A stretch of 64,000 nucleotides of DNA from Ferruginibacter sp. (GTDB lineage: Bacteria > Bacteroidota > Bacteroidia > Chitinophagales > Chitinophagaceae). Within the stretch, counting starts at the first letter, position 1. Each line of letters begins with the position of its first letter. Under the pieces are notes generated by a model. It did no database searches, was not told the DNA's origin, and saw only the letters and a program-made list of their open reading frames with translations. The translations under genes and the position numbers were made by a program. Shown here one piece after another: positions 4,253 to 19,142 of the stretch. The stretch spans positions 186,001-250,000 of the forward strand of contig JABFRP010000004.1 of NCBI GenBank assembly GCA_013141115.1. Reading direction: 5' to 3'.

Positions 4253-4317
4253 TGATTGTAATCATTTTTAACGATGTTGGTCATCATTTTTAATGGGCTG
4301 TAACAATGATAAGTTTG
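4253..4317 (+). promoter_or_regulatory. Tandem FNR-like boxes and -7 element before the universal stress gene
   Basis: The distal box TGATTGTAATCA (4253-4264) matches TGATnnnnATCA exactly. The proximal box TGTTGGTCATCA (4275-4286) has one mismatch. Box centres are 22 bp apart. A Bacteroidota -7 element TAAGTTTG (4310-4317) follows, and the proximal centre lies 36.5 bp before its last base. The same geometry is found before three other genes in the window. A 9-bp inverted repeat GATAAGTTT/AAACTTATC (4308-4316 and 4329-4337) overlaps the -7 element. Confidence 0.65.
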
Positions 4318-4341
4318 TGTACAACATAAAACTTATCCATC

Positions 4342-5172
4342 ATGAAAAAGATAATCATTGCATTGGATGGCGATCATTTTCCTCAGGGTGCATTTGAATT
4401 TGCAAAAAGTATTAACCTGAAAAATGAAATACTGCTGGCAGGTGTTTTTTTAAGCCCGGTTGATTACTCAAAACTGATGGCTTATACTGCCGGTGTGGAT
4501 GGTGTGGCGGTGATGCCGGAATGGCTGATGAAAAATGATGATGATGAAATTATAAATAAAAACATTGAGCTGTTTGAAGAAGCCTGCGTTGCCGATGGGC
4601 TGCATTACAGAGTGCATAAAGAAAATAATTTAATGGCATTGGCTTCTTTAGTGGAAGAAAGCCGTTTTGCCGACCTGCTTTTAATAAGCAGTGAATTGTT
4701 TTATAAAAATATAGGTGCGGCACAACCTAATTACTACCTGGAAGAAAATTTAAAAAGATCAGAGTGTCCGGTAATGCTGATTCCGGAAAACTATAAACAG
4801 CCTTCACAAATTTTACTGAGCTACGATGGCGGCGAATCTGCAATGTTTGCCATTAAGCAATTTGCTTACCTGTTTCCAGAGTTGGTAAATATGGAAACTA
4901 CACTGCTTTCTGTAACAGAAGATAAGCCGGAAGAGTTGCCGGAATATGCCATGGTAACAGAATTGCTTACCGGCCATTATCCCAACCTGAAACTGCAAAA
5001 TGTAAAAATATCCGGTAAAAAATTATTTATAGAATGGCTGGCTCTGCAACCCAATAGTTTTATTGTAATGGGGGCATTCTCCAGAAGTATGTTTTCTGAA
5101 TTGTTTAAAAAGAGTTTTGCAAGAAATGTAATTCAGGATATTAAAATGCCGCTTTTTGTATCTCATAAATAA
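4342..5172 (+). CDS. Universal stress protein, two tandem UspA domains
   Basis: A 276-residue cytoplasmic protein with two UspA-like halves. The first begins MKKIIIALDGDHFP, the second near residue 154 with QILLSYDGGESAMFA. The end of the second, FIVMGAFSRSMFSELFKKS, corresponds to the usual nucleotide-binding G-x2-G-x9-G(S/T) region but is degenerate, so ATP binding is uncertain. Seven bases separate it from the OsmC gene, so the two are probably co-transcribed. The upstream tandem FNR-like boxes suggest induction under low oxygen or redox stress, which fits the neighbouring cbb3 oxidase genes. Confidence 0.85.
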   Translation: MKKIIIALDGDHFPQGAFEFAKSINLKNEILLAGVFLSPVDYSKLMAYTAGVDGVAVMPEWLMKNDDDEIINKNIELFEEACVADGLHYRVHKENNLMALASLVEESRFADLLLISSELFYKNIGAAQPNYYLEENLKRSECPVMLIPENYKQPSQILLSYDGGESAMFAIKQFAYLFPELVNMETTLLSVTEDKPEELPEYAMVTELLTGHYPNLKLQNVKISGKKLFIEWLALQPNSFIVMGAFSRSMFSELFKKSFARNVIQDIKMPLFVSHK

Positions 5173-5178
5173 AAAGAG

Positions 5179-5643
5179 ATGATAGCAAAAACTGCAAAGC
5201 ACCAATACTACTTTGAAGTGCAATTGAACTGGCAGGAAGGCCGCAAAGGAATACTTACCGCCAATGATGTAAAAGATACTATTAAGGTGGCAACACCTCC
5301 GGAGTTTACCGGCGGTGTGCCGGATATGTGGAGCCCTGAGCATTTGTTTTTAAGTGCATTAAGCAGTTGCTTTATGACCACTTATTTGTCCATTGCAGAA
5401 AAAAGAAGATTAACGCTTTCGCATTTTGAATGCAGTGCAATAGGGCAGGTAACTTTAGTAGAAGGCCATTTGGAATTTACTACCATCAATCTTTTTCCAA
5501 AAATATTTGTTGCTGCACAAACAGCTGTTGCCATAGCAAATGAAGTATTGATGAAAGCCTACCAGCATTGTATTATTGCCAATTCAATAAAGCCGCATTT
5601 GATACATCATGGCGAAGTGCTGGTGGATAAACATTATTTGTAA
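5179..5643 (+). CDS. OsmC/Ohr family peroxidase-like protein
   Basis: A 154-residue OsmC-family protein. The two conserved cysteines are visible, in LSSCFMT (about residue 60) and HCIIANS (about residue 119). Proteins of this family reduce organic hydroperoxides through this cysteine pair, in the cytoplasm. The start ATG lies 7 bp after the universal stress gene, so it belongs to the same transcript. Family membership is clear; substrate is inferred. Confidence 0.85.
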   Translation: MIAKTAKHQYYFEVQLNWQEGRKGILTANDVKDTIKVATPPEFTGGVPDMWSPEHLFLSALSSCFMTTYLSIAEKRRLTLSHFECSAIGQVTLVEGHLEFTTINLFPKIFVAAQTAVAIANEVLMKAYQHCIIANSIKPHLIHHGEVLVDKHYL

Positions 5644-5714
5644 AAAATAACTGCTCAGTTTATTCTGCATAACCACATAAAAAACAGTAAGTTTGATTTA
5701 GTTAAGCTGTTTGC

Positions 5715-6440
5715 ATGAAAGAAGAAATCAAATCCGAAATAAAATTTTTAGAAGGACCGCAAAGCCGCTGGGAGGAATTTAAATTTGTGGTTAAAGTGCT
5801 GTTCGAATTTATTAAAGGCTTCAGGGCCTTACATTTTGTGGGGCCATGCGTTACCGTTTTTGGTTCGGCAAGGTTTAAAGACGGGCATCCGTATTACGAA
5901 ATTACCGAAGAGTTATCTGGCAAAATTGCACAACTGGGTTTTACTATAATGACGGGTGGCGGCCCCGGCATAATGGAAGCGGCTAACAAAGGTGCCAAAG
6001 CTGTTGGTGGCAGAAGTGTGGGCTGCAATATTGTTTTACCTATGGAGCAAAATCCCAATCCTTATCTTGATAAATGGGTAAGCATCCGTTATTTTTTTAT
6101 CCGCAAAACATTATTGTTAAAATATTCTTACGCATTTGTAGTAATGCCCGGTGGCTTTGGCACACTGGATGAATATTTTGAAGCGCTTACTTTAATTCAA
6201 ACCAAAAAGATAAGTGAGTTTCCTATTGTTATTTTTGATACCGCTTTTCACAAAGAATTACTGGAGCATATAGAGCTGATGAAAACAAAAGCAACTATTT
6301 CAGCTGTTGATACCCGGCTTTTTTTAGTTACAGATTCCATTGAAGAAGCTGTGGCCTACATACAAGAAAAGAGTATTGTTAAATTTGGCCTCAAACATCA
6401 AAAGCCGTACAAACCTTTCAGGTGGTTATTAGAAAAATAA
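5715..6440 (+). CDS. LOG-family protein (TIGR00730-type, Rossmann fold)
   Basis: A 241-residue protein of the LOG/lysine-decarboxylase-like family. The diagnostic motifs are GGGPGIMEAANKGA (about residues 86-99) and PGGFGTLDE (about 149-157). Characterised LOG proteins cleave cytokinin-type or purine nucleoside 5'-monophosphates to the base and ribose 5-phosphate; in bacteria many are nucleotide hydrolases of unclear role. No FNR-like box is seen directly before it, so it may be read through from the upstream stress genes, 71 bp away. Confidence 0.85.
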   Translation: MKEEIKSEIKFLEGPQSRWEEFKFVVKVLFEFIKGFRALHFVGPCVTVFGSARFKDGHPYYEITEELSGKIAQLGFTIMTGGGPGIMEAANKGAKAVGGRSVGCNIVLPMEQNPNPYLDKWVSIRYFFIRKTLLLKYSYAFVVMPGGFGTLDEYFEALTLIQTKKISEFPIVIFDTAFHKELLEHIELMKTKATISAVDTRLFLVTDSIEEAVAYIQEKSIVKFGLKHQKPYKPFRWLLEK

Positions 6441-6493
6441 ATAGCACCGGTTGCTTTTTATGCTACTTCAATACCCTGCACGTAATCATTTAC

Positions 6494-6558
6494 TGATAAA
6501 TATCATATTGTAGTTTGATGGAAATCATCTCCACTCTCTGTACAAAGAGCCACATTTG
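6494..6558 (+). promoter_or_regulatory. Tandem FNR-like boxes and -7 element before a small coiled-coil gene
   Basis: Two exact TGATnnnnATCA boxes, TGATAAATATCA (6494-6505) and TGATGGAAATCA (6516-6527), have centres 22 bp apart. The -7 candidate CACATTTG (6551-6558) matches TAnnTTTG except at its first base, and its last base is 36.5 bp from the proximal centre. Two copies of TTGATCA at 6587 and 6595 sit just before the start codon. Confidence 0.7.
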
Positions 6559-6611
6559 TAACATAATTACAGGCAATAAAAACAAATTGATCAGTTGATC
6601 AATCAATAACG

Positions 6612-6800
6612 ATGCGGCAACCGGGTAACGATATAGGAGAAGAGCAGAAGAGTGTTGCTAAAGAAGATGGTTTTAAAAATCAATATGATATTGATACCTT
6701 TTATGCTCAGGATATATTAAGGGATCGTATTAAGGCTTTAGAAAAAATGTATACTGAATTAAAGTGTAATTTTCAGAAATATGTATCGTCTATATCCTAA
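6612..6800 (+). CDS. Small acidic/coiled-coil protein of unknown function
   Basis: A 62-residue soluble protein with no signal peptide. The C-terminal 23 residues are predicted helical (LEKMYTELKCNFQKYVSSIS) and resemble the C-terminus of the larger protein at 16365-16754 (LEKNFTQLKNEFNKYLVSVL). Both genes have the same tandem-box promoter. I do not recognise a named family. The shared tail and promoter suggest related small helper or adaptor proteins made under the same conditions as the cbb3 oxidase. Confidence 0.65.
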   Translation: MRQPGNDIGEEQKSVAKEDGFKNQYDIDTFYAQDILRDRIKALEKMYTELKCNFQKYVSSIS

Positions 6801-6880
6801 CGTAAAATCATAAAATTCAATATCAATAAATGTTTTATGTAAAAATTATGCATAAAAAGAGTGTTCAATAGTTTCTGTCT

Positions 6881-6923
6881 AAAAAAAGCCGCTGTGTAGT
6901 CTTATTCGGCGGCTACTTTTTTT
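6881..6923 (+). terminator. Rho-independent terminator
   Basis: An A-run, the stem AGCCGC (6887-6892) with GCGGCT (6909-6914), then a T-run (6917-6923). It closes the transcript of the small protein and isolates ccoI. Confidence 0.75.
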
Positions 6924-6939
6924 AATCAAATTGTAAGTT

Positions 6940-9354
6940 ATTAAAACAACAACAGTCATAAAAACCAAATGCTTTCATTGCGGCGAAAACTGCGATGATA
7001 ATGACATTATTATAGAGGATAAAAGTTTTTGTTGCGAAGGTTGCAAGCAGGTGTACTTACTGCTTAACGAAAATGATCTTTGTGTATACTACGATTTTGA
7101 TAAAAACCCCGGTATAAAAGCAAAAGGCAGGTTTGTTAGTGAACGCTTTGCCTATCTTGAAGATGAAGCCACTATAAAAAAATTGGTACAGTTCAGCAAT
7201 GGTTCGCAAACCAATGTTACTTTTTCGCTACCGCAAATGCACTGCTCTTCCTGTATCTTTTTACTCGAAAATCTGCACCGTATCAATCCGGGTGTAATAA
7301 AATCACAAACTAATTTTCAGCGTAAAGAAGTGTTCATCATATTTGATCCTCATCAAATTTCTTTACGTAAAGTAGTAGAACTGCTGGCCTTTATTGGCTA
7401 CGAACCCAATATCAGCTTAAAGGATACTGTTTCAAAGAGAACATCAACATTTAACCGGCAAAGGATTTATAAAATAGGCGTAGCAGGTTTTTGCTTTGCC
7501 AATATTATGATGTTGAGTTTTCCTGAATACTTTTCGTCCGGTAATATTGAGCAAAACGGATTAAAAGAAACATTTACCTGGCTGAACCTTGGTTTATCAT
7601 TACCCGTTTTATTTTACAGCGCTTCTGGTTTTTTTGTGTCAGCATGGAAAGGTTTGCGCCAGCAGTTTTTAAATATTGATGCACCCATTGCTTTGGCAAT
7701 TGTAGTTACATACGCAAGAAGTTATTACGAAATTATCACTGGCACAGGTGCCGGGTATTTAGATTCCGGTACAGGCATTGTGTTTTTTATGCTGATAGGC
7801 CGCTGGTTTCAGGATAAAACTTACGACTCATTTTCTTTCGATAGAGATTACCTGTCTTATTTTCCGCTGGGCGTTAGTATTATAAAAGATGGTATAGAAA
7901 AAAATATTCCTGTTACACAATTGCAAAAGGGCAACCGCATTATTATCCGTAACGAAGAGATGATACCTGCCGATGCTATATTATTAAGTGGCAATGCCAA
8001 TGTGGATTATAGTTTTGTAAGTGGCGAAAATACACCGGTACAAAAGCAACCGGGCCAACTGATATATGCCGGAGGCAAACAGATTGGCAGTGTAATAGAA
8101 CTGGAAGTTGCAGGCGAAGCATCACAGAGCTATATAACACAGCTTTGGAATAATGATGTTTTTCACAATAAAAAGAATGGTGAAAAATCGTTTATCCACC
8201 CATGGAGCCGTTATTTTACATTAGCATTATTTGCAGTGGCTGCAACCACATTGGTATTTTGGCTAATTAACGATACCAGTAAAATATTACCTGCAGTTTC
8301 TTCAGTACTAATTGTAGCATGCCCTTGTTCACTGTTACTATCAGCAACATTTACTTATGGTAATATGCTTAGGCTTTTTGGCAAGAATAAACTTTACCTG
8401 AAAAATGCCAGTGTTATGGAATCGCTGGCTAAAATTGATACCATAGTTTTTGATAAAACAGGTACCATCACTCAAAATCAAACTTCACTGGTAAGTTACG
8501 AGGGCACACCTTTAACTGACAAAGAGTTAGTGGCAGTAAGAAATGTTGCCCGACAATCATCTCACCCTTTAAGCAAAATAATAGCAGTATGGCTGCAAAC
8601 CGGTGATGATAAAATTATACCTGTAGATCAATTTAACGAATACACCGGCAAAGGTTTGCAGGCAATAGTAAATGGTATTGATGTAAAAATGGGTTCTGCC
8701 AGTTTTATGCACCAGTTTAATCCCGGTTTTGCTTCGTACGATACAGGCTCACATGTTCATGTAATGATGAATAATGTACATATGGGGCGTTTTAATGTAA
8801 GCAATCAGTATCGCCCCGGCGTAGAGCAGTTAGTGGATGAATTGAAAAATAAAGGGCTGGTGCTTTCTGTTTTAAGTGGGGATAATGATGCTGAAAGAGA
8901 TAATTTAAAAAAGATATTTGGCGCAGCAGCAGATCTGAATTTTAATCAAACACCGCAGCAAAAACTGGATTTTATTGAAGCACTTCAAAAGGATAAAAAA
9001 AATGTATTAATGCTGGGGGATGGATTGAACGATGCCGGAGCATTAATGCAAAGTAATGTAGGCATAGCAGTTAGTGATAATACTGCACAATTTTCCCCTG
9101 CCTGTGATGCTATTTTAGCTGGCGAAAATGTGCAATTGCTTGAAAAATTTATAGCTTTTGCAAAATCAGGTAAAACTATAGTTACAGCAAGTTTTATACT
9201 TTCAATTTTATATAATATAGCAGGCTTATCCTTTGCGGTACAGGGTATTTTATCACCAATGGTTGCGGCTATACTTATGCCGGCAAGCAGTATCAGCATT
9301 GTATTATTAGTAACTGCACTATCTTCTATTAGTGCAAGGGCAAAAGGTTTATGA
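6940..9354 (+). CDS. ccoI: cbb3 oxidase copper-transporting P1B-type ATPase CcoI, non-standard start
   Basis: A heavy-metal P-type ATPase that exports or delivers copper for cbb3 oxidase assembly in the inner membrane. Motifs: HMA-type MHCSSC, the membrane CPC motif (VACPCS), the phosphorylation motif DKTGT (8452) and the hinge GDGLNDAGAL. The first standard start codon is GTG 7051. However, the frame is open from 6937, and the upstream codons encode KCFHCGENC...FCCEGCKQVY, the cysteine-rich metal-binding domain typical of CcoI. No ATG, GTG or TTG lies upstream, so the true start is probably ATT 6940 or ATA 6958, unless a base was miscalled. Transcribed apart from, and just upstream of, the oxidase operon. 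Confidence 0.85.
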   Translation: MKTTTVIKTKCFHCGENCDDNDIIIEDKSFCCEGCKQVYLLLNENDLCVYYDFDKNPGIKAKGRFVSERFAYLEDEATIKKLVQFSNGSQTNVTFSLPQMHCSSCIFLLENLHRINPGVIKSQTNFQRKEVFIIFDPHQISLRKVVELLAFIGYEPNISLKDTVSKRTSTFNRQRIYKIGVAGFCFANIMMLSFPEYFSSGNIEQNGLKETFTWLNLGLSLPVLFYSASGFFVSAWKGLRQQFLNIDAPIALAIVVTYARSYYEIITGTGAGYLDSGTGIVFFMLIGRWFQDKTYDSFSFDRDYLSYFPLGVSIIKDGIEKNIPVTQLQKGNRIIIRNEEMIPADAILLSGNANVDYSFVSGENTPVQKQPGQLIYAGGKQIGSVIELEVAGEASQSYITQLWNNDVFHNKKNGEKSFIHPWSRYFTLALFAVAATTLVFWLINDTSKILPAVSSVLIVACPCSLLLSATFTYGNMLRLFGKNKLYLKNASVMESLAKIDTIVFDKTGTITQNQTSLVSYEGTPLTDKELVAVRNVARQSSHPLSKIIAVWLQTGDDKIIPVDQFNEYTGKGLQAIVNGIDVKMGSASFMHQFNPGFASYDTGSHVHVMMNNVHMGRFNVSNQYRPGVEQLVDELKNKGLVLSVLSGDNDAERDNLKKIFGAAADLNFNQTPQQKLDFIEALQKDKKNVLMLGDGLNDAGALMQSNVGIAVSDNTAQFSPACDAILAGENVQLLEKFIAFAKSGKTIVTASFILSILYNIAGLSFAVQGILSPMVAAILMPASSISIVLLVTALSSISARAKGL

Positions 9355-9362
9355 ACAAAAAC

Positions 9363-9427
9363 TGACCAAAATCATATCGCCGTTTGATGTTTATCAGTAG
9401 CAAAATATGTTACTCAGGCTATTTTTG
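9363..9427 (+). promoter_or_regulatory. Tandem FNR-like boxes and -7 element of the cbb3 operon
   Basis: Distal box TGACCAAAATCA (9363-9374, one mismatch) and proximal box TGATGTTTATCA (9385-9396, exact) have centres 22 bp apart. The -7 element TATTTTTG (9420-9427) is an exact TAnnTTTG match and ends 36.5 bp after the proximal centre. With transcription starting about 5 bp further on, the proximal box would sit near -41.5, the class II FNR/CRP activator position. Confidence 0.75.
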
Positions 9428-9449
9428 ATGCTATATAAAACCATTTCTC

Positions 9450-9644
9450 TTGAGCGCACTATTTATTTTAATCGGTATTAGCATATTGGTAGCTGCCAGT
9501 TTTCTGGCTGCTTTTTTATGGAGTGTAAAATCCGGTCAGTTCGATGACGACTACACGCCTTCTGTTCGTATGCTTTTTGACGATACCAAACAAATCCCAA
9601 CTAAAAAAATACAAACCAAAACTCAACAAAAATTAAACGATTAA
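9450..9644 (+). CDS. ccoS: cbb3-type oxidase assembly protein CcoS
   Basis: A 64-residue single-span membrane protein with the CcoS pattern: an N-terminal hydrophobic helix (ALFILIGISILVAASFLAAFLW) followed by the conserved polar stretch SGQFDD. CcoS is needed for cofactor insertion into cbb3 oxidase. The start is TTG at 9450, chosen because no ATG precedes the helix. It is the first gene of the oxidase operon and is followed after 2 bp by ccoNO. Confidence 0.85.
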   Translation: MSALFILIGISILVAASFLAAFLWSVKSGQFDDDYTPSVRMLFDDTKQIPTKKIQTKTQQKLND

Positions 9645-9646
9645 CT

Positions 9647-11785
9647 ATGCAGGTAGAAAAATTTTATTACGACAACAAGATTGTTAGAAACTTTGCCTAT
9701 GCAACTGTGGTATGGGGTGCAGTAGGTATGCTTGTTGGCCTATGGGTGGCACTGCAATTAGTGCTTCCATCCGCACTTAACATTACTCAGTACTTTACTT
9801 TTGGCAGGCTTCGTCCTTTACACACCAACGCAGTAATTTTTGCATTTGTGGGTAATGGTATTTTTATGGGTGTGTACTATTCCTTGCAACGCTTATGCAA
9901 GGCAAGAATGTTTAGTGATAAACTGAGTTACATACATTTTTGGGGCTGGCAATTAATTATAGTTGCAGCAGCTATCACTTTGCCAATTGGTTTAACACAA
10001 GGTGCAGAGTATGCCGAATTAATTTGGCCAATAGATTTAGCCATTACAGTTATCTGGGTAATTTTTGGCTGGAACATGTTTGGTACTATCATTAAAAGAA
10101 GAGAAAAACATTTGTATGTAGCCATTTGGTTTTACATAGCCACATTTGTTACTGTTGCAGTGTTACACCTGGTACGTTCTGGCGAATTGCCTTATACCTG
10201 GCTAAAAAGTTATAGCTTTTATGCTGGTGTACAGGATGCGCTGGTACAATGGTGGTATGGTCATAATGCGGTGGCTTTCTTTTTAACTACCCCATACTTA
10301 GGTTTAATGTATTATTTTATGCCTAAAGCGGCCAACCGTCCTGTTTACTCTTACCGCCTTTCTATTATTCACTTTTGGTCGTTAATATTTTTGTATATCT
10401 GGGCTGGTCCTCACCATTTATTATACACTGCATTACCTAACTGGGCACAATCTTTAGGTGTGGTTTTTTCGTTGATGCTCATCTTCCCAAGCTGGGGTGG
10501 TATGATCAATGGTTTACTTACACTACGTGGTGCATGGGATAGGGTACGTGATGATGTTATTTTAAAATTTATGGTAGTGGCAGTTACTGCTTATGGTATG
10601 GCCACTTTTGAAGGTCCGATGCTTTCTTTAAAAAGTGTTAGTGCAGTAGCGCATTATACCGACTGGATTGTAGCCCACGTACATATTGGTGCATTAGGAT
10701 GGAATGGTATGCTAACCTTTGGTATCCTGTACTGGATACTTCCAAGAATGTTTAAAACCGAATTGTATTCTAAAAAAATAGCCAACTGGCATTTCTGGTT
10801 AGGCACTTTGGGTATTTTATTCTGGGCTATTCCAATGTACTGGGCAGGGTTTACACAAAGTTCTATGTGGAAACAATTTACCGATGCAGGTCAGTTAAAA
10901 TATACATTTCTTGAAACAGTTACTTACCTGAAACCATTTTACATTATGCGTTCTTTAGGTGGTACGCTGTATTTGGTAGGTGTGTTATTTATGATTTATA
11001 ATTTGTACAAAACTGTAAAGGCAGGCAAATTAGTAGCTAATGAAGAAGCAGAAGCTGCACCATTACAAAAAGAATATGCTAAACACGAAGGCGAACACTG
11101 GCACAGAGTGATTGAAAGAAAACCAGTTCAATTTATGATCTTAAGTTTAGTGGTAATATTGATTGGAGGTATTATAGAAATCGTTCCTACTTTCTTAATA
11201 AAATCAAATGTACCTACCATCAGCAGTGTAAAACCATACACACCATTAGAATTGGAAGGTAGAGATATTTATATAAGAGAAGGTTGTTATACCTGTCACT
11301 CACAAATGATCCGTCCTTTTAGAAGTGAGACAGAACGTTACGGTGAATATTCTAAAGCAGGTGAGTTTGTGTACGATCATCCGTTCCAGTGGGGAAGTAA
11401 ACGTACCGGTCCGGATTTGGCAAGAGAAGGTGTAGGTAATCTTAAGAAAACCAATGGCTGGCATTTCCGCCATTTCCGTGAACCATCTTCTATGAGTGAA
11501 GGATCAGTAATGCCGGCATATCCGTTCTTGTTAGAGAATGATTTGGATATATCTAATACCGAAGCTAAAATAAATGCGATGAGAACCTTGGGAGTACCTT
11601 ACGAAAAAGGGTATGAGAAAAGTGCTGTTGCAGACCTGGTACTTCAATCAAGTGTAATTGCAAATAACCTGGTAGGAGATAGCATCCGCATTTCACCAAA
11701 AAAAGAAGTGATTGCATTGATAGCATATATACAGCGTTTGGGTGTTGATATCAGTAAAAATAAAACAGCCACTTTTAATAAATAA
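9647..11785 (+). CDS. ccoNO: Fused cbb3-type cytochrome c oxidase subunits I and II (CcoNO)
   Basis: A 712-residue fusion of the catalytic subunit CcoN and the mono-haem cytochrome subunit CcoO, the usual Bacteroidota form. The CcoN part (about residues 1-470) is polytopic and shows the metal-ligand histidines: RPLHTNAVIF, WWYGHNAVAF, GPHHLLYT and VAHVHIGALGWNG. The CcoO part starts after a membrane span near 495 and has the haem c motif CYTCHSQM (about residue 548) with the conserved RPFRSETERYGEYS stretch. It reduces oxygen to water at high affinity and pumps protons in the inner membrane. Confidence 0.95.
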   Translation: MQVEKFYYDNKIVRNFAYATVVWGAVGMLVGLWVALQLVLPSALNITQYFTFGRLRPLHTNAVIFAFVGNGIFMGVYYSLQRLCKARMFSDKLSYIHFWGWQLIIVAAAITLPIGLTQGAEYAELIWPIDLAITVIWVIFGWNMFGTIIKRREKHLYVAIWFYIATFVTVAVLHLVRSGELPYTWLKSYSFYAGVQDALVQWWYGHNAVAFFLTTPYLGLMYYFMPKAANRPVYSYRLSIIHFWSLIFLYIWAGPHHLLYTALPNWAQSLGVVFSLMLIFPSWGGMINGLLTLRGAWDRVRDDVILKFMVVAVTAYGMATFEGPMLSLKSVSAVAHYTDWIVAHVHIGALGWNGMLTFGILYWILPRMFKTELYSKKIANWHFWLGTLGILFWAIPMYWAGFTQSSMWKQFTDAGQLKYTFLETVTYLKPFYIMRSLGGTLYLVGVLFMIYNLYKTVKAGKLVANEEAEAAPLQKEYAKHEGEHWHRVIERKPVQFMILSLVVILIGGIIEIVPTFLIKSNVPTISSVKPYTPLELEGRDIYIREGCYTCHSQMIRPFRSETERYGEYSKAGEFVYDHPFQWGSKRTGPDLAREGVGNLKKTNGWHFRHFREPSSMSEGSVMPAYPFLLENDLDISNTEAKINAMRTLGVPYEKGYEKSAVADLVLQSSVIANNLVGDSIRISPKKEVIALIAYIQRLGVDISKNKTATFNK

Positions 11786-11788
11786 CCC

Positions 11789-11986
11789 ATGTATAAATTC
11801 ATAAAGCAATATGCTGAAACAATGAAGGATGCAAGCATTTATCCAATGATATCATTGTTTATTTTTCTTATCTTTTTTATAGTGCTGCTGGTACTGGTAA
11901 AAAAAATGGGAAAAGAAAGGGTAACGGAATTATCCAATATCCCTTTTGAAGAAGATGAACTAACTAACTCAAACTTAATAAATTAA
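11789..11986 (+). CDS. ccoQ: CcoQ/FixQ-like small cbb3 oxidase subunit
   Basis: A 65-residue protein with one membrane helix (about residues 19-40) between short polar ends, placed between ccoNO and ccoP where CcoQ is normally found. CcoQ stabilises the oxidase complex. Sequence conservation in this family is low, so the call rests on size, topology and position. Confidence 0.75.
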   Translation: MYKFIKQYAETMKDASIYPMISLFIFLIFFIVLLVLVKKMGKERVTELSNIPFEEDELTNSNLIN

Positions 11987-11992
11987 AGTAGT

Positions 11993-13216
11993 ATGCATTT
12001 CATTAATTTAATAAAGAAAAAATTTATCGTGGCGTTAACTGCACTATTTGCAGTAACAAATTTGACAGCGCAAACAACAACGCCTGCAGCAACTACAGTA
12101 ACATCAAGCTATAACCTGCTGGCAATATTGCTGGTAGTAATGACTATAGTATTGGCTTTTGTTATCTGGGGGCTTGGGCAAATACTGGTAGCATTAACTA
12201 CACAGCTGATGGAAAAAACCAAAGCTGCTAAAAATTCAATTGCTGCTGTATTGGTGCTGGTATTATTATTTGCATCGCAGGGTGCTGCCGCACAAACAAC
12301 AACAGCTGCAGATGCTGCAAAAGTATTGCCTAATTACGGCGGCCTTTCTTCCACCACCTTTTACATGTTTGTAACAGTAATTGCAATGGAAGTATTTGCA
12401 GTTTTATTCCTGGTATTTTCTATCCGCAGAATATACACTGAATTATTGCCTAAAAAAGAATTAGCAGCCGCACAAAAATCTGCAACAGCTTCATGGTGGG
12501 CCGGCCTCGATAAAAAAATATTTACCAAAGCTGTGCCTATTGAAAAAGAAGCAGATGTTTTACTGGATCATGATTATGATGGCATTAAAGAACTGGACAA
12601 TGCATTACCACCATGGTGGAAGTACGGATTTTATATTACTATAGCTATAGCATTAGTGTACATCCTTAACTTTCATGTAATGGGTAACGGCAAAAATCCT
12701 ACAGAAGAGTATACCGCAGAAATGGAGAGTGCAAGAATACAAAAAGAGATTTTTGAAGCTGGTAATAAAGATAAGATAGACGAAAATAATGTGCCAATGG
12801 CCGATGCAGCCGGATTGGCAAGGGCGAAAGAAATTTTTGCTACTAAATGTTTAGCATGCCATGGTAATTTAGGCCAGGGTGGTGTAGGGCCAAACCTTAC
12901 TGATGATTATTGGTTGCACAAGGGCTCTTTAAATGATATTTATAATACTATTAAAGTGGGCTATGCCGATAAAGGAATGCAATCGTGGGCCAATGATTTT
13001 ACACCAAAAGAAATGAGTTTTTTAGCAAGCTATATTAAAATACTAAAGGGTACCAACCCTCCAAACCCAAAAGCAGCGCAGGGAGATTTGTATACAGAGA
13101 CAGCAGCAACACCTGCCGTTGCAGATTCTGCTAAAGTGGCTACACCTGATAGTGCAGCAGTTGGTAAAGCAGCAGTAACTATTAAAAAGGATTCCGCTAA
13201 AGCTATAATGAAATAG
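11993..13216 (+). CDS. ccoP: cbb3-type cytochrome c oxidase subunit III (CcoP)
   Basis: A 407-residue membrane-anchored cytochrome c. After a signal-like N-terminus come hydrophobic segments near residues 35-70, 80-100 and 115-143, then the FixP_N-type stretch with DHDYDGIKELDNALPPWW (about 183-200) and another span (about 205-225). One haem c motif, CLACHG (about residue 287), is visible, so it carries one haem rather than the two of proteobacterial CcoP. The C-terminus is an Ala/Lys/Thr-rich tail. Confidence 0.9.
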   Translation: MHFINLIKKKFIVALTALFAVTNLTAQTTTPAATTVTSSYNLLAILLVVMTIVLAFVIWGLGQILVALTTQLMEKTKAAKNSIAAVLVLVLLFASQGAAAQTTTAADAAKVLPNYGGLSSTTFYMFVTVIAMEVFAVLFLVFSIRRIYTELLPKKELAAAQKSATASWWAGLDKKIFTKAVPIEKEADVLLDHDYDGIKELDNALPPWWKYGFYITIAIALVYILNFHVMGNGKNPTEEYTAEMESARIQKEIFEAGNKDKIDENNVPMADAAGLARAKEIFATKCLACHGNLGQGGVGPNLTDDYWLHKGSLNDIYNTIKVGYADKGMQSWANDFTPKEMSFLASYIKILKGTNPPNPKAAQGDLYTETAATPAVADSAKVATPDSAAVGKAAVTIKKDSAKAIMK

Positions 13217-13232
13217 CTGTGGAATAAAAATT

Positions 13233-14720
13233 ATGGAAGAAACTATTGTACAAGAACAAGACAAGAAAGGCAGCTACAGAGATTCCGTTGCTACTATAAG
13301 TAAAGAAGGTAAAAGAAATTTTATCAATCCAAAAAAGCCAAAGGGCAGGTTGTATAATTTACGTACCTGGTTCAGTGTTTTTTATTTGATTGTTTTTTTT
13401 ACACTGCCTTTTATAAAAGTGTATGACGAACCTTTGCTGATGCTGAATGTGCTGGAGCGCAAGTTCATCATATTTAGTATGGTATTTTGGCCACAGGATT
13501 TTTTCATCTTTGGCATAGCCATGCTAACATTTGTTGTTTTTGTTATTTTGTTTACGGTGGTATTTGGCCGCATATTTTGTGGTTGGGCTTGTCCGCAAAC
13601 CATTTTTATGGAAATGGTTTTTCGTAAAATCGAATACTGGATTGATGGCGATTCGGCAAAACAAAAGCAATTAAAAGAAATGCCCTGGAATGCAGAGAAG
13701 GCCAGGAAAAGGATAGTGAAGTTTATTGTGTTCTTTGCTATTTCATTTATCCTTGCTAATTTTTTTCTGGCTTACCTTATTAGTATGGATAAGGTATTGG
13801 AGTATGTACAAAATCCGGGAGCTAATATTGGCACCTTGATTTCACTGCTCATTTTTACTTCAGTGTTTTTCTTTGTGTACTGGTGGTTTAGAGAGCAGGC
13901 TTGTATTGTAGTTTGCCCTTATGGAAGATTACAGGGGGTGTTGTTAGATAAAAACTCAATTGTAGTAGCGTATGACAGAAAACGTGGCGAGCCAAGAGGG
14001 AAATTAAAAAAGAAGGAAGACCACGATTGTAAATGTACCGACTGTAAAGAAGACGGAGCTTGTAAAAGTATAGCACCAAAGCTGGAAATAGCCAAACCGC
14101 AGAGCGATTGTATTGATTGTTTTGCATGTGTAAGAGTATGCCCTACCGGAATTGATATCAGGAATGGTACGCAATTAGAATGTGTGAACTGTACGGCTTG
14201 TATTGATGCCTGCGATGCCATTATGACCAGCATTCAAAAACCTACAGGTTTGGTGCGTTATGCATCGGAAAATAGTATTGTAAACGGCGTGCAGATAAAG
14301 TTTACCACCAGGATAAAAGCTTACACAGCGGTGCTTACTTTATTGCTGTCGTTGCTGGTATTTCTGTTGGTAAGCCGTACCGATCTGGATGCAAGGTTAA
14401 TGCGTACTGCCGGCATGACGTACACCTCTTTACCCGATGGCCGCATCAGCAATTTGTACAATTTAAAACTGGCCAATAAAACGCATAATGATATTCCGTT
14501 TACTTTAAAACTGGAAAACACAAATGGCGAAATTGAATTTGTAGGAACGGCAAATATGGTTGTAAAAAAAGAGGATTACTCGCATGTACAATTTTTTATA
14601 AAACTAGATAGAAGCCTAGTAAAAGGATGGAAAACACCCATTGAGATAGGCATGTACCAAAACGATAAAAAAATAAAAACAATTGAGGCTAAATTTATTG
14701 GCCCCGAAATTTATAACTAA
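13233..14720 (+). CDS. ccoG: Cytochrome c oxidase accessory protein CcoG (FixG/RdxA family)
   Basis: A 495-residue polytopic iron-sulfur protein. Motifs include FGRIFCGWACPQTIFMEM, EQACIVVCPYGRLQG, and ferredoxin-like clusters CIDCFACVRVCP and CVNCTACIDACD. An additional cysteine-rich insert CKCTDCKEDGACK (about residues 267-279) precedes them. CcoG helps reduce copper for transfer into the oxidase. The C-terminal periplasmic domain after the last membrane span is Ig-like. Sits between ccoP and ccoH in one transcript. Confidence 0.95.
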   Translation: MEETIVQEQDKKGSYRDSVATISKEGKRNFINPKKPKGRLYNLRTWFSVFYLIVFFTLPFIKVYDEPLLMLNVLERKFIIFSMVFWPQDFFIFGIAMLTFVVFVILFTVVFGRIFCGWACPQTIFMEMVFRKIEYWIDGDSAKQKQLKEMPWNAEKARKRIVKFIVFFAISFILANFFLAYLISMDKVLEYVQNPGANIGTLISLLIFTSVFFFVYWWFREQACIVVCPYGRLQGVLLDKNSIVVAYDRKRGEPRGKLKKKEDHDCKCTDCKEDGACKSIAPKLEIAKPQSDCIDCFACVRVCPTGIDIRNGTQLECVNCTACIDACDAIMTSIQKPTGLVRYASENSIVNGVQIKFTTRIKAYTAVLTLLLSLLVFLLVSRTDLDARLMRTAGMTYTSLPDGRISNLYNLKLANKTHNDIPFTLKLENTNGEIEFVGTANMVVKKEDYSHVQFFIKLDRSLVKGWKTPIEIGMYQNDKKIKTIEAKFIGPEIYN

Positions 14721-14733
14721 TAAATTATTTACT

Positions 14734-15165
14734 ATGAACTGGGGATATAAAATACTTTTTGTTTATGGTGTTTTTGTTTTGGGCATTTTGTTCATGGTGT
14801 TTAAATCATCCAGTCAAAAAATGGATTTGGTAACAACTGATTATTACGCCAAAGAATTAAAATACCAGGAAAAAATTGATGAAATGAACCGGGTTAGTAC
14901 TTTAACTGAAGAGCTTAAGTATGAATTAAAAGATAACCAGATCGTTTTATATTTTCCAAAAGATTTTTCAGGTAAAAAAATAACCGGTACTGCAGAATTG
15001 TACTGCCCTTCTAACGAGGATAAAGATGTAAAACAAAATTTTTCGGTGCAGGATACGCCATTGATAATTGCTATTAAACCAGGCAATAAAGGACAGCACG
15101 AATTGCATATTACCTGGCTGGTAGATGGAACAAGTTATTATTTTGAAAAGAAGATTTTTATATGA
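14734..15165 (+). CDS. ccoH: CcoH/FixH family protein
   Basis: A 143-residue single-span membrane protein (helix in the first 25 residues) with a periplasmic domain. The motif DLVTTDYYAKELKYQEKID is typical of FixH in Bacteroidota. The frame is open from 14683 inside ccoG, but ATG 14734 directly precedes the membrane helix and is the natural start. CcoH is required for cbb3 assembly. Its TGA overlaps the next ATG (ATGA), showing translational coupling. Confidence 0.85.
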   Translation: MNWGYKILFVYGVFVLGILFMVFKSSSQKMDLVTTDYYAKELKYQEKIDEMNRVSTLTEELKYELKDNQIVLYFPKDFSGKKITGTAELYCPSNEDKDVKQNFSVQDTPLIIAIKPGNKGQHELHITWLVDGTSYYFEKKIFI

Positions 15166-15539
15166 GCCATCAAAAACAAACAGAACATCATGTAAGGCCT
15201 TATAAATTGCTGGCACAAACTGTTGGGCTATTGGTATGTGGCTTTTTTTTGTTGTTTATAATTGGAGAAGGAATACCTGATATTATAAAAGGTAATGGCG
15301 CCGGATTAATTCTTTTTTTGCCTTTTGTATTGTTGCCCATTGCAGGCTATATAATAACATGGTTTAAAGAGTGGCAGGGAGCTGCAGTAATGGTTACCGG
15401 AGCAATTTTATTGCTGGTTTATTGTGTAGTTAAGGTAGATATTAAAGCAGGATTGATTTACTGCATTCCATTTTTTATATCAGGAGCATTATTCTTTTTA
15501 CATATTAAAAAACGCAGTACACTGCAACATCATAAATAA
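15162..15539 (+). CDS. Four-span membrane protein of unknown function in the cbb3 operon
   Basis: A 125-residue hydrophobic protein with about four membrane helices separated by short loops and a basic C-terminal tail. The start overlaps the ccoH stop by 4 bp and the next gene begins 6 bp after its stop, so it is firmly within the operon. I do not recognise a characterised family. Its place suggests a role in oxidase assembly or membrane support. Confidence 0.7.
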   Translation: MSHQKQTEHHVRPYKLLAQTVGLLVCGFFLLFIIGEGIPDIIKGNGAGLILFLPFVLLPIAGYIITWFKEWQGAAVMVTGAILLLVYCVVKVDIKAGLIYCIPFFISGALFFLHIKKRSTLQHHK

Positions 15540-15545
15540 CAAAGT

Positions 15546-16262
15546 ATGATACAATTGATAATTGCTGCATTTGCTATGGGTTTGCTGGGAAGCTTTCACT
15601 GTGTGGGCATGTGTGGGCCATTAGCATTATCATTACCCATAAACAGCGATAGTTTCTGGTCAAAATTTTCGGGGGCATTATTATACAATGCTGGCCGTAT
15701 AGTTACTTACTCGTTATTTGGGTTGGTGTTTGGTGCCATTGGAAAAAGTGTGGCATTGTTTGGTTACCAGCAATGGCTGTCTGTAATACTGGGTGTGTTG
15801 ATCATTGTATTTGTTATACTGCCTAAAAGAGTATCCTCTTTTAGCGGCAATAATTATGTAATGCAATTTTTTGAAAAGATACGTGCCGCATTAGGACAAC
15901 TGTTTTTTAAAAAGAATAATGCATCATTATTTTCGATAGGGTTATTAAACGGGTTACTACCATGCGGCCTGGTATATATGGCAGCAGCTGGTGCAGTGGC
16001 CACGGGAGATATTGCAAATAGTGTAATTTTTATGGCTTTTTTTGGTTTGGGTACATTGCCGGTAATGTGGAGTGTTGCATTTTTTGGCAACTATGTTAGC
16101 ATTGGTATCAGGCAAAAAATTCGTAAGGCTTATCCTTATATGATGATGCTGATGGCTTGCCTGCTTATTTTAAGGGGCATGGGTTTAGGGATACCGTATG
16201 TAAGCCCTAAGGCAGATACCACCGAAAAAGTGGTGCAGGGCTGCTGTGCAAAACCTGATTAA
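15546..16262 (+). CDS. Sulfite-exporter TauE/SafE-like (DsbD_2-type) membrane protein
   Basis: A 238-residue polytopic protein with the signature FHCVGMCGPLALSLP near the N-terminus and the repeat-like GLLNGLLPCGLVY in its second half, the cysteine-bearing motifs of the TauE/SafE-DsbD_2 family often found with ccoI/ccoG. The C-terminal CCAK could bind metal. A role in copper or thiol handling for cbb3 oxidase is inferred from position. Its stop codon lies inside the distal FNR-like box of the next promoter. Confidence 0.8.
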   Translation: MIQLIIAAFAMGLLGSFHCVGMCGPLALSLPINSDSFWSKFSGALLYNAGRIVTYSLFGLVFGAIGKSVALFGYQQWLSVILGVLIIVFVILPKRVSSFSGNNYVMQFFEKIRAALGQLFFKKNNASLFSIGLLNGLLPCGLVYMAAAGAVATGDIANSVIFMAFFGLGTLPVMWSVAFFGNYVSIGIRQKIRKAYPYMMMLMACLLILRGMGLGIPYVSPKADTTEKVVQGCCAKPD

Positions 16263-16320
16263 ATTCAGCAGGTGGCATGATATTAATCTGCAAGCAGGTG
16301 GGTTAAACAAAATAGATTTA
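16256..16320 (+). promoter_or_regulatory. Tandem FNR-like boxes and -7 element before a coiled-coil gene
   Basis: Distal box TGATTAAATTCA (16256-16267) and proximal box TGATATTAATCT (16278-16289) each have one mismatch to TGATnnnnATCA. Centres are 22 bp apart. A -7-like TAGATTTA (16313-16320, one mismatch) ends 36.5 bp after the proximal centre. Each element alone would be weak evidence; the shared geometry makes the case. Confidence 0.6.
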
Positions 16321-16364: not shown

Positions 16365-16754
16365 ATGACAAATAGTTATACAGCTAAATTAGATCAGTAT
16401 CGTCACGAGTACCGTACATGGCAAAGAATGCTTGAGTTTTTTAAGCAGGAAAATGCTTTTTTAAAAACACGGTTATCAGAAGTGGTGGATCGTAATACCG
16501 ACAAGGAGTTTTTAGCCCTTGCCGAGCATTTTCAAAACCAGTTTATAATAAAAGATGATTTTATAGCAGAGCTCAAACATGATATTAATGAAATGGAAAC
16601 CATTTTAAAAACAACTACCACTCCATTAAAAAATATGCCTGATAAAAGGGTAGAGGCAAAACACATTAAACTGCGTAACGAAATTGAATACCTGGAGAAA
16701 AATTTTACACAGTTGAAAAACGAGTTTAATAAATACCTGGTATCCGTTTTATAA
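16365..16754 (+). CDS. Coiled-coil protein of unknown function
   Basis: A 129-residue soluble protein, almost wholly helical, with heptad-like leucine/isoleucine spacing. The frame opens at a GTG (16353), but ATG 16365 (MTNSYTAKLDQY) is the better start. The C-terminal stretch LEKNFTQLKNEFNKYLVSVL resembles the tail of the 62-residue protein at 6612-6800, suggesting a shared partner or multimerisation motif. It converges on the response regulator gene, with 9 bp between stops. Confidence 0.65.
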   Translation: MTNSYTAKLDQYRHEYRTWQRMLEFFKQENAFLKTRLSEVVDRNTDKEFLALAEHFQNQFIIKDDFIAELKHDINEMETILKTTTTPLKNMPDKRVEAKHIKLRNEIEYLEKNFTQLKNEFNKYLVSVL

Positions 16755-16763
16755 AGCCGGTGG

Positions 16764-17822
16764 TTAGTTTAATAATGCGGCCAGCTTTTTTTCGTTGATG
16801 ATAGAAATATTTCCGTCTTTAATTTCAATTAATTTTTCATTTTTAAAATCGCTTAGGGTGCGGATGAGCGACTCTGTTGCGGTGCCTGCAATATTGGCCA
16901 GATCTTCTCTTGAAATATGCATAGAAAAAATAGCATCACTTTCTTTTTTGTATTTGTTCTGTAAAGTGATCAATGCATCTGCCACTCTTTTTCTTAAAGA
17001 GTTGTAGGCAATATTTAATAGTTGTTCTTCTTTTTCCGATACATTTTTTGCCAGTAACTGGATGAACTTTTTTTGTATGCCGGCATTGGAGTGAATGAGT
17101 TTTTCAAAATCTTCTCTTGGTATTACAGCAATTTCTGCATCTTCAATAGCTTCTGCATTTTCTTTATACACGGTTTCTTCAAGCAGGGCGGTATAGCCTA
17201 AAAAATCACCTTCATTAAAAAGCCCCACTGTAAGTTCTTTACCATCGTCGTTAGTTTTAAAAGTTTTTACTTTTCCTTTTTCGATGTAAAATAAACGCAC
17301 CGGGTGATTGCCTTCTGTATAAATGATCTGTTTCTTTTTGTAATGGTTTACATTGCCGCTTTCTGCCAGATATTGTACTGCATTTTTTCCACCAAACTCA
17401 TTCAGCATTTGCTGTACTCCTTCGGCATTGGATTGGTATTCTTTTTTTAACAGATCGGCTTTACGCAGGCGGCTTTCCACTGCATTTAATAATTCTATAT
17501 CATTAAATGGTTTGGTTATATAATCATCAGCTCCCATTTCCATACCTTTTCTAAAATCGCCACGCTCTGCCTTGGCGGTTAAAAAGATAAAAGGAATGCC
17601 GGTAAGTTCCGGGTTTTTATGAATGAGGTGTAAAACGCCATAGCCATCCAAAACAGGCATCATTACATCGCAAATAATTGCATCTGGTTTTTTTTGCATA
17701 GCAATTTCAATACCCTTTTTGCCATTTTCGGCAGTGGCTACGGTATATCCGGCTAGCTGCAGTATCTCTGCTGTGTTTTCTCTTATTTCGTCATTATCTT
17801 CAATAAGCAGTAGATGCTTCAT
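16764..17822 (-). CDS. Response regulator fused to a CRP/FNR-family DNA-binding protein
   Basis: A 352-residue hybrid. Residues 1-120 are a receiver domain: acidic pocket in LLIEDNDEIREN, phospho-acceptor Asp in AIICDVMMPVLDG (about residue 52) and Lys in ITKPF. A cNMP-binding-like barrel follows (about 150-265), then a CRP-type helix-turn-helix (SREDLANIAGTATESLIRTL). The recognition helix has Glu and Arg four residues apart (TESLIR), as in CRP and FNR. No FNR-type iron-sulfur cysteine cluster is present, so signal input probably comes by phosphorylation from the adjacent kinase. Likely regulator of the tandem TGATnnnnATCA promoters. Confidence 0.85.
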   Translation of the reverse strand: MKHLLLIEDNDEIRENTAEILQLAGYTVATAENGKKGIEIAMQKKPDAIICDVMMPVLDGYGVLHLIHKNPELTGIPFIFLTAKAERGDFRKGMEMGADDYITKPFNDIELLNAVESRLRKADLLKKEYQSNAEGVQQMLNEFGGKNAVQYLAESGNVNHYKKKQIIYTEGNHPVRLFYIEKGKVKTFKTNDDGKELTVGLFNEGDFLGYTALLEETVYKENAEAIEDAEIAVIPREDFEKLIHSNAGIQKKFIQLLAKNVSEKEEQLLNIAYNSLRKRVADALITLQNKYKKESDAIFSMHISREDLANIAGTATESLIRTLSDFKNEKLIEIKDGNISIINEKKLAALLN

Positions 17823-17849: not shown

Positions 17850-19142
17850 TTAAGGCATGGTAAATTTAATAATAAATTCCGTTCCCTTTTCCAATTCACT
17901 GGAAAAAGCAATCTGCCCGTCCATAAGTTCTATATATTTACTTACTATATGAAGCCCGAGGCCGGTGCCCTGAATGTTGGCCGCATTGGTGCCCCTGAAA
18001 AAACGTTCAAATAAATGTTCCTGATCTTCTTTGGAAATACCAATTCCGCAATCTCTTACAGTGATGGTAATTTCTTTTTCTTTGGTAGTACTGTTTATTT
18101 CGATAACTCCTTTTTCGGGAGAAAATTTTATGGCATTGGATAGCAGGTTAAGAACTACATTCCTCAGCAATGAAGGATCTAAGCAAACATTTTCTTCTCC
18201 ATGGTGTACATAGTTAATGTGTTGCCCGTGTTTTACCAGGCTTTGCATTTCGGCACAAACCACTCCCAGCATTTCTTTAATATTAAACTGGGCATAATGC
18301 GCTGTAATTTTTCCGTCTTCAATTTTGCCGATGGATAAAAATTCATTCAGCAGATCGGTTAAATTATTTACCGATGATTTTATACGGTGAATGTGTTTAT
18401 CCCTGTTTTCCTGCTGTGCAGTTTCGGTATATTTTGCCACTAAAGAAGCAGAGGAAAGTATGGTGCTTAATGGTGTACGGAATTCATGCGAAGCCATAGA
18501 AACAAAACGGCTTTTTAAGTCGCTCAGTTCCTTCTCTTTGCTTAATGCTTTGGTAAGTTCTTCTTTGGAAGTTTGTAACTGAATTAAGGTTTCCTGCAAT
18601 TGCTGGGTACGCAGTTCTACTTTTTGTTCCAGTGCATCATTCAATTCTTCAATCTTTAAATTGATATCTGCTAGTTGCTCTTTTTGCTGTAATACAGCAT
18701 TTTCAATTTCTTTGCGTTTGGTAATATCAATAATAAATGCAATGGCAAAACTGCCTTCATCGGCACCATAATGGCTTAAGCTTATTTCTACCGGAAATTC
18801 GGTACCATCCTTCTTTATACCAAAAAGGTCTTTGCCAATACCCATTGGCCTGCGTTCGGGCTTTTTGCTGTAATTAGTTAAATGTTGTGTGTGATTATGA
18901 TGGTATCTTGATGGTATCAGCGCTTCCACTTTTTTACCTACCAGTTCTTCTGCTTTTTCATATCCAAACTGGGAGAGTAAAAAGTTATTGGCAAGCATGA
19001 TCTCACTTTTCTCATTAATTACTAATATGCCCATAGAAGCATATTGAAAAAGTGCTTCAAATTTCTCTTTTTCCTTTAAAAGGATATGTGCTGATGTATA
19101 TACCAAATGTATTTTTTTTCTGCTTTCTATTTTTACAAACAC
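17850..19142 (-). CDS. PAS-domain sensor histidine kinase
   Basis: A 430-residue kinase with a PAS domain (about residues 25-145), a coiled-coil linker (about 150-205), the H box SMASHEFRTPLST (about 216-228) and an ATPase domain with VVLNLLSNAIKFS, GIGISKEDQ and GTGLGLHIVS. No membrane spans, so it is cytoplasmic. The PAS domain resembles FixL in its IGIG-like stretch (RPMGIGKDLFG) followed by KKDGTEFPVEIS, but Arg/Pro stand where the FixL haem-ligand His would be, so haem oxygen sensing is not supported. Start is GTG 19142. It lies 27 bp upstream of the response regulator gene in the same direction: a two-component operon. Confidence 0.85.
   Translation of the reverse strand: MFVKIESRKKIHLVYTSAHILLKEKEKFEALFQYASMGILVINEKSEIMLANNFLLSQFGYEKAEELVGKKVEALIPSRYHHNHTQHLTNYSKKPERRPMGIGKDLFGIKKDGTEFPVEISLSHYGADEGSFAIAFIIDITKRKEIENAVLQQKEQLADINLKIEELNDALEQKVELRTQQLQETLIQLQTSKEELTKALSKEKELSDLKSRFVSMASHEFRTPLSTILSSASLVAKYTETAQQENRDKHIHRIKSSVNNLTDLLNEFLSIGKIEDGKITAHYAQFNIKEMLGVVCAEMQSLVKHGQHINYVHHGEENVCLDPSLLRNVVLNLLSNAIKFSPEKGVIEINSTTKEKEITITVRDCGIGISKEDQEHLFERFFRGTNAANIQGTGLGLHIVSKYIELMDGQIAFSSELEKGTEFIIKFTMP

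Follow-up and report, generated by a model that had tools for sequence, protein, structure and literature searches.

We describe here a type of promoter marked by two tandem boxes of the CRP/FNR kind, held at a fixed distance from each other and from a Bacteroidota -7 element, in a 64,000-nt stretch of DNA from Ferruginibacter sp. (GCA_013141115.1, JABFRP010000004.1 positions 186,001 to 250,000), referred to as the window, and in the genomes of its relatives. Four such promoters lie in the window, upstream of a universal stress protein-like gene, a gene for a 62-aa protein, the ccoS and ccoNO genes of a cbb3 oxidase, and a gene for a 129-aa coiled-coil protein. The architecture of the sites, their conservation, their association with regulator genes and the set of their targets were computed directly. 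Judged from sequence comparison, the four sites are probably activator-dependent promoters of one low-oxygen/redox-stress regulon, each carrying a tandem class II module driven by a protein in which a receiver domain is fused to a CRP-type output (receiver-CRP). Which regulators a genome encodes, where their genes lie and what the targets do are all consistent with this reading.

At each of the four promoters, two boxes resembling TGAT-N4-ATCA lie 22 bp apart, centre to centre, and the last base of a TAnnTTTG-like -7 element falls 36.5 bp past the centre of the proximal box (4 out of 4). A previous inspection of the same DNA, the sequence-only reading, had proposed this layout, and the coordinates of the eight boxes and four -7 elements, the spacing and the distance were all reproduced to the base. 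Scanning the window also returned the same division of the boxes, four of them (4253, 6494, 6516 and 9385) matching TGATNNNNATCA exactly and four (4275, 9363, 16256 and 16278) carrying one mismatch. The elements are listed below, with the score of each whole site in the position weight matrix (PWM) described further on.

4253..4264, + strand: distal box, universal stress gene promoter, TGATTGTAATCA, 0 mismatches
4275..4286, + strand: proximal box, universal stress gene promoter, TGTTGGTCATCA, 1 mismatch
4310..4317, + strand: -7 element, universal stress gene promoter, TAAGTTTG; whole-site PWM score 35.5
6494..6505, + strand: distal box, 62-aa gene promoter, TGATAAATATCA, exact
6516..6527, + strand: proximal box, 62-aa gene promoter, TGATGGAAATCA, exact
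6551..6558, + strand: -7 element, 62-aa gene promoter, CACATTTG; whole-site PWM score 36.3
9363..9374, + strand: distal box, ccoS-ccoNO promoter, TGACCAAAATCA, 1 mismatch
9385..9396, + strand: proximal box, ccoS-ccoNO promoter, TGATGTTTATCA, exact
9420..9427, + strand: -7 element, ccoS-ccoNO promoter, TATTTTTG; whole-site PWM score 41.2
16256..16267, + strand: distal box, 129-aa coiled-coil gene promoter, TGATTAAATTCA, 1 mismatch
16278..16289, + strand: proximal box, 129-aa coiled-coil gene promoter, TGATATTAATCT, 1 mismatch
16313..16320, + strand: -7 element, 129-aa coiled-coil gene promoter, TAGATTTA; whole-site PWM score 20.1

It is the pairing, rather than the single boxes, that is exceptional in the window: single boxes are mildly enriched (47, against a shuffle mean of 34.2), while pairs with at most 2 mismatches in total number 4 at spacing 22 and 0 or 1 at each of the other 48 spacings from 12 to 60, which sum to 4. 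A PWM trained on 105 sites from other species, the lowest of which scores 22.5, gives the window sites the values listed above, compared with a maximum of 9.5 in ten Markov-shuffled windows. The whole genome (5.44 Mb, 5 contigs) was then scanned with a 22-position pattern, box-N10-box-N23-TANNTTTG, allowing up to 3 mismatches: 16 matches were obtained and none with the reversed control. The genome has two receiver-CRP genes, and nine of the 16 matches are located no more than about 14 kb from them, the 6494 pair read on its opposite strand counting among the nine; part of the 16, having no convincing downstream gene, may be due to chance.

The same layout recurs in 80 loci (1.38 Mb), fetched for encoding relatives of the window receiver-CRP protein, whose record titles are mostly of Chitinophagaceae or other Bacteroidota, the closest being a Ferruginibacter metagenome-assembled genome (MAG) with 84% identity. 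In these loci, spacing 22 accounts for 88 pairs with at most 2 mismatches, and each of the other spacings between 12 and 55 for 1-9. Of 38 proximal boxes followed by an exact TAnnTTTG, 36 are separated from it by a gap of 23. Spacing 22 together with gap 23 yields 105 sites (up to 3 mismatches over the three elements), compared with 0-7 for each of 29 control combinations of spacing and gap, 21 of which give none. At least one such site is found in 54 of the 80 loci, and 26 have none. One of the loci (L137) encodes a 63% identical receiver-CRP on a contig filed as Streptomyces griseus, a MAG label that is probably wrong.

Beyond these loci, the three-element pattern with at most 2 mismatches is present in 137 of 195 genomes of the family, and in an exact pair search with free spacing over the same genomes, 47 of the 75 pairs listed have spacing 22, the next best spacing accounting for 4. 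In a sample of 395 genomes from the phylum, it was found in 13/14 genomes of the family, 5/5 of the order and 24/79 from the rest of the class; in other classes it occurs in 3 of 297, two of the three belonging to one genus, with 9 and 10 sites. The reversed three-element control gave 0 in the own genome, in the family and in the phylum sample. The suggestion that pairing exceeds chance is thus sustained by the fixed-spacing searches of the own genome (16 versus 0), of the 80 loci (105 versus 0-7) and of the relatives. The attribution of the paired layout to this group needs widening: it is present here, and also elsewhere in the class and in genomes having only a cysteine-bearing FNR. One relative (G151:C333:5122-5199) displays four exact boxes in 22-bp steps, that is three overlapping pairs, forming an extended array of the operator unit.

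Alignment of 109 sites, four of them from the window, reveals a TGA-N6-TCA core with a preferred inner T and A, followed by TA-N2-TTTG. The outer T and A of TTGAT-N4-ATCAA are not conserved, A being the commonest base before the distal box (41%) and T after it (54%). The match to the FNR core, noted at first, is therefore that of an FNR-like box rather than of the canonical TTGAT-N4-ATCAA; the FNR box is given as TTGATnnnnATCAA in PMC1274295. Exact boxes are 43 at the distal and 17 at the proximal position, the proximal one being more degenerate. Tandem boxes are nonetheless the rule in the 80 loci: at exact -7 elements, 66 of 70 good distal boxes (at most 1 mismatch) have a proximal partner with no more than 3 mismatches, and 45 of 49 good proximal boxes have a recognisable distal one, the background mode being 6 mismatches.

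In a distant relative, Flavobacterium psychrophilum, mapped transcription starts put the -7 box at positions -12 to -5 (PMC9723704), and the boxes are accordingly placed at -41.5 and -63.5, in line with the earlier proposal of a proximal box near -41.5. The same paper reports that oxygen limitation strongly induces the cbb3 oxidase in that species; its main text has no words starting with Fnr or Crp. A -33 TTG (spacer 17-20) precedes 14 of the 109 sites, against 107 of 1113 for all exact TAnnTTTG words of the loci: it is hardly enriched, as expected of activator-dependent promoters. A dimer site at about -41.5 and a weak or absent -35 (-33) element are the features of class II promoters of the CRP/FNR type, and the E. 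coli class II and tandem CRP/FNR promoters similarly combine a palindrome at -41.5, no -35/-33 element and a second, upstream dimer. In E. coli, the second CRP/FNR site is optional and its distance variable. Here, by contrast, the second box, at -63.5, is nearly always recognisable.

The genes following the sites also point to a low-oxygen response. In the window, apart from the two small genes considered at the end, they are:

4342..5172, + strand: universal stress protein-like gene, 276 aa, start 24 nt past the -7 element; Pfam Usp at 23.7 bits, just below the cut-off of 24
9450..9644, + strand: ccoS (FixS), cbb3 oxidase assembly; Pfam FixS 8.4e-22, TIGR00847 above cut-off
9647..11785, + strand: fused ccoN-ccoO, cbb3 oxidase subunits I/II; NF011053 at 1259.6 bits, cut-off 1080

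When proteins encoded downstream of sites in the loci and the window are clustered, the largest groups are ccoS/ccoNO (23), Hsp20 (13), ccoI-type ATPase (10) and the 129-aa coiled-coil gene (9), followed by universal stress proteins (7 and 3), PAS-kinase-like proteins (7, by eye), a 130-aa family (5) and DoxX (4); ScdA hemerythrin, beta-CASP, BON, CBS, DUF892 and cytochrome c proteins are represented by few or single cases. Pfam scans were made for ten of the downstream proteins. The FNR-like character proposed for the targets is borne out by these clusters, which comprise cbb3 oxidase, assembly and stress genes. A role of the 130-aa family as ribosome hibernation factor was considered and dropped, as no Pfam match was found. 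In other genomes, inspection by eye found downstream a hydrogenase small subunit with hypA, Rrf2-type regulators, YceI-like proteins and L003-type CRPs (see below), and several sites with no recognisable target. The module before Rrf2-type regulator genes (L062, L063, L080 and L081, by eye) suggests an additional regulatory layer.

A second island, on contig C4 of the own genome (G000:C4:126001-145000, L052), encodes a receiver-CRP 63% identical to the first, a kinase with three PAS domains, a paralogue of the coiled-coil gene and universal-stress-like genes; its sites precede a DUF892 gene, a baeRF gene and, with 4 mismatches, a universal-stress-like gene. It is a duplicated control island.

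The candidate regulator is encoded beside the gene of the fourth promoter, next to a histidine kinase gene:

16764..17822, - strand: receiver-CRP fusion, 352 aa; Pfam Response_reg, cNMP_binding and HTH_Crp_2
17850..19142, - strand: partner PAS histidine kinase with FixL-like PAS; Pfam PAS (one domain), HisKA and HATPase_c

In 35 receiver-CRP sequences, E8, D9, D52 and K104 are invariant, T82 is conserved in at least 90% and the recognition helix is conserved; the protein has the acceptor Asp, acidic pair and conserved Thr and Lys of a phosphorylatable receiver. The window protein begins with this domain and lacks the N-terminal cysteine cluster of FNR, whereas the candidate FNRs of relatives, putative Fe-S proteins, have N-terminal cysteines, and most of them also a central one. 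The recognition helices read GTATESLIRTLSDFK in receiver-CRP, GTATESxIRLLSEFK in FNR and GLRVETVIRTIKNL in L003, a short CRP of the own genome. The cyclic-phosphate stretch of receiver-CRP reads YKENAEA (by eye); CRP has ERSAWV, with the Arg-Ser pair that binds the cyclic phosphate. The predicted structure has good domains but a low overall predicted template modelling (pTM) score of 0.42, and the model was not used.

Presence of the module follows that of the regulators. In the family, it is found in 97 of 114 genomes with receiver-CRP only, in 22/24 with both receiver-CRP and FNR, in 15/27 with FNR only and in 3 of 30 with neither, this last figure becoming 0/22 among those at least 90% complete. 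Where receiver-CRP occurs without FNR and L003-type CRP, the module is present in 57/73 genomes, versus 2/28 where all three regulators are missing. Outside the family, 31 module-bearing genomes, chosen for their sites, were analyzed (29 of the order and class, 2 of another class): full-length receiver-CRP is encoded in 25 of the 29 and in neither of the two, and the six genomes without it have FNRs at 1.4e-59 or better, found also in 2 of 28 examined class genomes without the module. Among the 93 matches listed for the 31 genomes, 35 (31 of 85 once strands are merged), from 21 genomes, lie within 20 kb of a receiver-CRP gene or, failing that, of an FNR gene, with about 0.9 expected, and 12 lie within 2 kb. 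The response regulator-CRP protein, originally put forward as the likely binder, is thus supported by association, through its presence and adjacency.

The partner kinase suggests what the signal might be. Its 14 PDB matches are 7 FixL, 4 DosP, 1 yddU, 1 "heme PAS sensor protein" and 1 multi-sensor kinase, the best being a FixL (1.1e-11); we take the yddU and "heme PAS sensor" entries to be E. coli Dos. Of 82 sequences searched, 75 gave a PAS match, and all but one of these (74) carry His in the column corresponding to the haem-binding His of FixL. Oxygen sensing through a kinase haem is therefore plausible from sequence, with the reservation given below.

In the mechanism that we propose, CRP/FNR-type dimers would bind at about -41.5, the class II position touching RNA polymerase, and at -63.5, on nearly the same face of the DNA. 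The binder would here most likely be the fusion encoded at 16764-17822 and/or its paralogue on contig C4, activated when the adjacent kinase, whose PAS domain resembles those of the haem oxygen sensors FixL and DosP, phosphorylates Asp52; the FixL-FixJ-FixK cascade would in effect be compressed into two proteins. The targets would be the genes for the cbb3 oxidase and for its assembly, together with a group of dormancy type (universal stress proteins, Hsp20, DoxX, ScdA, CBS and BON). In some relatives, the module would be driven by a cysteine-bearing FNR whose recognition helix is almost identical to that of receiver-CRP. Binding, phosphorylation, the oxygen signal and cooperation between the boxes, or a need for both, are what we infer from the computed features. 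A broader view is plausible, if appreciably less secure than the regulon itself: dimers at -41.5/-63.5 may represent a standard low-oxygen unit of a Bacteroidota operator code, read by interchangeable sensors through a GTATES-IR helix, the sensor (Fe-S-type FNR or receiver-CRP fed by a haem-PAS kinase) having changed by lineage on a DNA code, and with many targets, that were retained. A direct role of the receiver domain in enforcing the pairing was also considered, an idea weakened by the pairs of FNR-only genomes (15/27), FNR having no receiver.

Several observations weigh against the receiver-CRP regulon. The 80 loci were selected through receiver-CRP itself, and the genomes are not phylogenetically independent, shared ancestry meaning that co-occurrence tests are not independent draws. 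The regulator also occurs without the module: among the 138 genomes of the family that encode receiver-CRP, 19 are without a site when up to 2 mismatches are allowed, and it is still encoded in 14 of 28 site-less class genomes (28 of 55 were examined). In the window, site 16256 is the weakest of the four, its PWM score of 20.1 falling under the lowest training score of 22.5, and the opposite-strand reading of the same pair, which has no proper -7 element, scores equally high (20.6); the site is still supported, because in 8 of the 80 loci a gene related to the one that follows it also has the promoter (the BLAST-linked cluster being 9 with the window). As to the signal, the column of the FixL distal Arg is unconserved (Met 32, Leu 24, Arg 7, Lys 5, Phe 5, Ile 2; n=75), which makes haem or oxygen sensing uncertain. 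Finally, the own genome encodes short CRPs, L003 and L004, with a related helix, GLRVETVIR, and a further CRP, L005, with an N-terminal cysteine cluster and a different helix, and these three could share the boxes.

This last point leads to an alternative that we regard as distinctly improbable, in which a stand-alone CRP/FNR protein, of the L003/L004 type or the cysteine-bearing L005, binds the boxes and receiver-CRP is a mere neighbour or target. Besides the related helices and the cysteines of L005, it can draw on a weak copy of the module (4 mismatches) before the L003 gene, on modules directly before L003-type genes elsewhere (L229; G087 C3) and on the FNR-only genomes with the module (15/27). 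Yet module copies cluster at receiver-CRP genes, a search of the own genome for the GTATES-type FNR gave no relative at 1e-50, and the module accompanies receiver-CRP alone in 57/73 genomes as against 2/28 with none of the three regulators, a co-occurrence which also weakens the short L003-type CRP as sole regulator. In L059 (G000:C1:840000-850000), a short CRP preceded by a weak module copy (4 mismatches) has NnrS-like and ScdA-like genes (by eye) downstream, and is a possible nitric oxide (NO)-stress sub-regulator.

Another possibility is that activation depends on a single box, the other serving a different factor, fine-tuning or repressing. The greater degeneracy of the proximal box (17 versus 43 exact, n=109) does suggest unequal constraint, but the two have a common core and, at their fixed distance, are closely coupled; we consider this unlikely. 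Negligible, in our opinion, is the chance that the pairs are a by-product of TGAT/ATCA words, common in an AT-rich genome. Single boxes are indeed only mildly enriched in the window, and the bare pair with 3 mismatches gives 89 hits but also 17 with the reversed control, a control that is weak because such words are common, so that the spacing controls were relied on. These already refute a chance origin, which the gap, reversed-pattern and Markov controls also rule out, with 0 reversed three-element matches and 3 of 297 other-class genomes.

The receiver-CRP regulon may be compared with known systems. The rhizobial FixL-FixJ-FixK system likewise features a FixL-like PAS kinase, a receiver domain, a CRP/FNR-type module and FNR-like boxes, with sites before the cbb3 oxidase (fixNOQP) and assembly (fixGHIS) genes. 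The output domain of FixJ is LuxR-type, whereas receiver and CRP output are here in one chain, the boxes are tandem at 22 bp, the -7 element is that of Bacteroidota and the targets extend to genes of dormancy type. Regulons of Fe-S FNR, DNR and NnrR share the TGAT-N4-ATCA core and targets in low-oxygen respiration and NO stress (ScdA), but differ in that here the outer T/A is unconserved and the own-genome candidate has a receiver domain and no cysteine cluster. The mycobacterial DosR regulon has a haem-sensor kinase, a low-oxygen signal, universal stress proteins, Hsp20 and CBS-domain proteins: the targets are of a similar kind and the sensor may be, while DosR is a LuxR-type regulator with a different box and the output here is CRP-type.

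The architecture is real and widely conserved, and fits class II CRP/FNR activation with FixL-type signalling. We found no description of a combination in which tandem boxes are almost obligatory, receiver and CRP module are fused, and an FNR appears to take the place of the fusion on the same boxes. In agreement with the sequence-only reading, which knew of no published paired layout, no description of it or of a receiver-CRP regulon was found in the open-access literature, subscription journals being largely uncovered. The available portions of PMC3688515, PMC9723704, PMC1274295, PMC3267773 and PMC8510549 describe neither; in that of the E. coli FNR paper PMC3688515 "tandem" and "spacing" do not occur, and that of PMC3267773 deals with the GAL4 and ZEBRA activators. 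The three-element pattern, having very few false matches (3/297 other-class genomes), would allow the regulon to be read from a genome and points to its candidate regulator. It also provides leads to the function of the three-helix neighbour of the regulator, the 130-aa family and the DUF892 and baeRF proteins. The system may in addition be an example from nature of one sensor replacing another while the operator remains unchanged, and a way into why two adjacent dimers are used.

Two of the genes following the window promoters had been singled out as having no assigned function:

6612..6800, + strand: 62-aa open reading frame; no Pfam or NCBIfam match; relatives in 4 of 80 loci
16365..16754, + strand: 129-aa coiled-coil protein; relatives in 49 of 80 loci

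Their proposed membership is unequally supported, more so for the 129-aa gene (49/80 loci) than for the 62-aa gene (4/80). The 129-aa gene lies tail-to-tail with receiver-CRP, within 250 bp, in 40 of the 49 loci. Its product is predicted to fold into a three-helix bundle (mean predicted local distance difference test score 89, pTM 0.81), for which the fold search returned no match at E <=0.001, the top ones being generic helical bundles; from its position, one may guess that it modulates the regulator or the kinase. Between the 62-aa gene and the following ccoI-type ATPase gene, a hairpin with a T run (6880-6925, at about 6888; -15.7 kcal/mol) was found, and terminator prediction over 6400-7200 called none in spite of it. 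Because of this hairpin, transcription from the 6494 promoter may stop short of the ATPase gene, and the 62-aa gene may encode a monocistronic small protein. The reading frame of the ATPase itself extends upstream of the listed GTG start at 7051, with Cys motifs (KCFHCGENC...FCCEGC) common to relatives; no ATG, GTG or TTG occurs in frame between the preceding stop at 6934 and 7051, which leaves either an unusual start codon or a sequence error.

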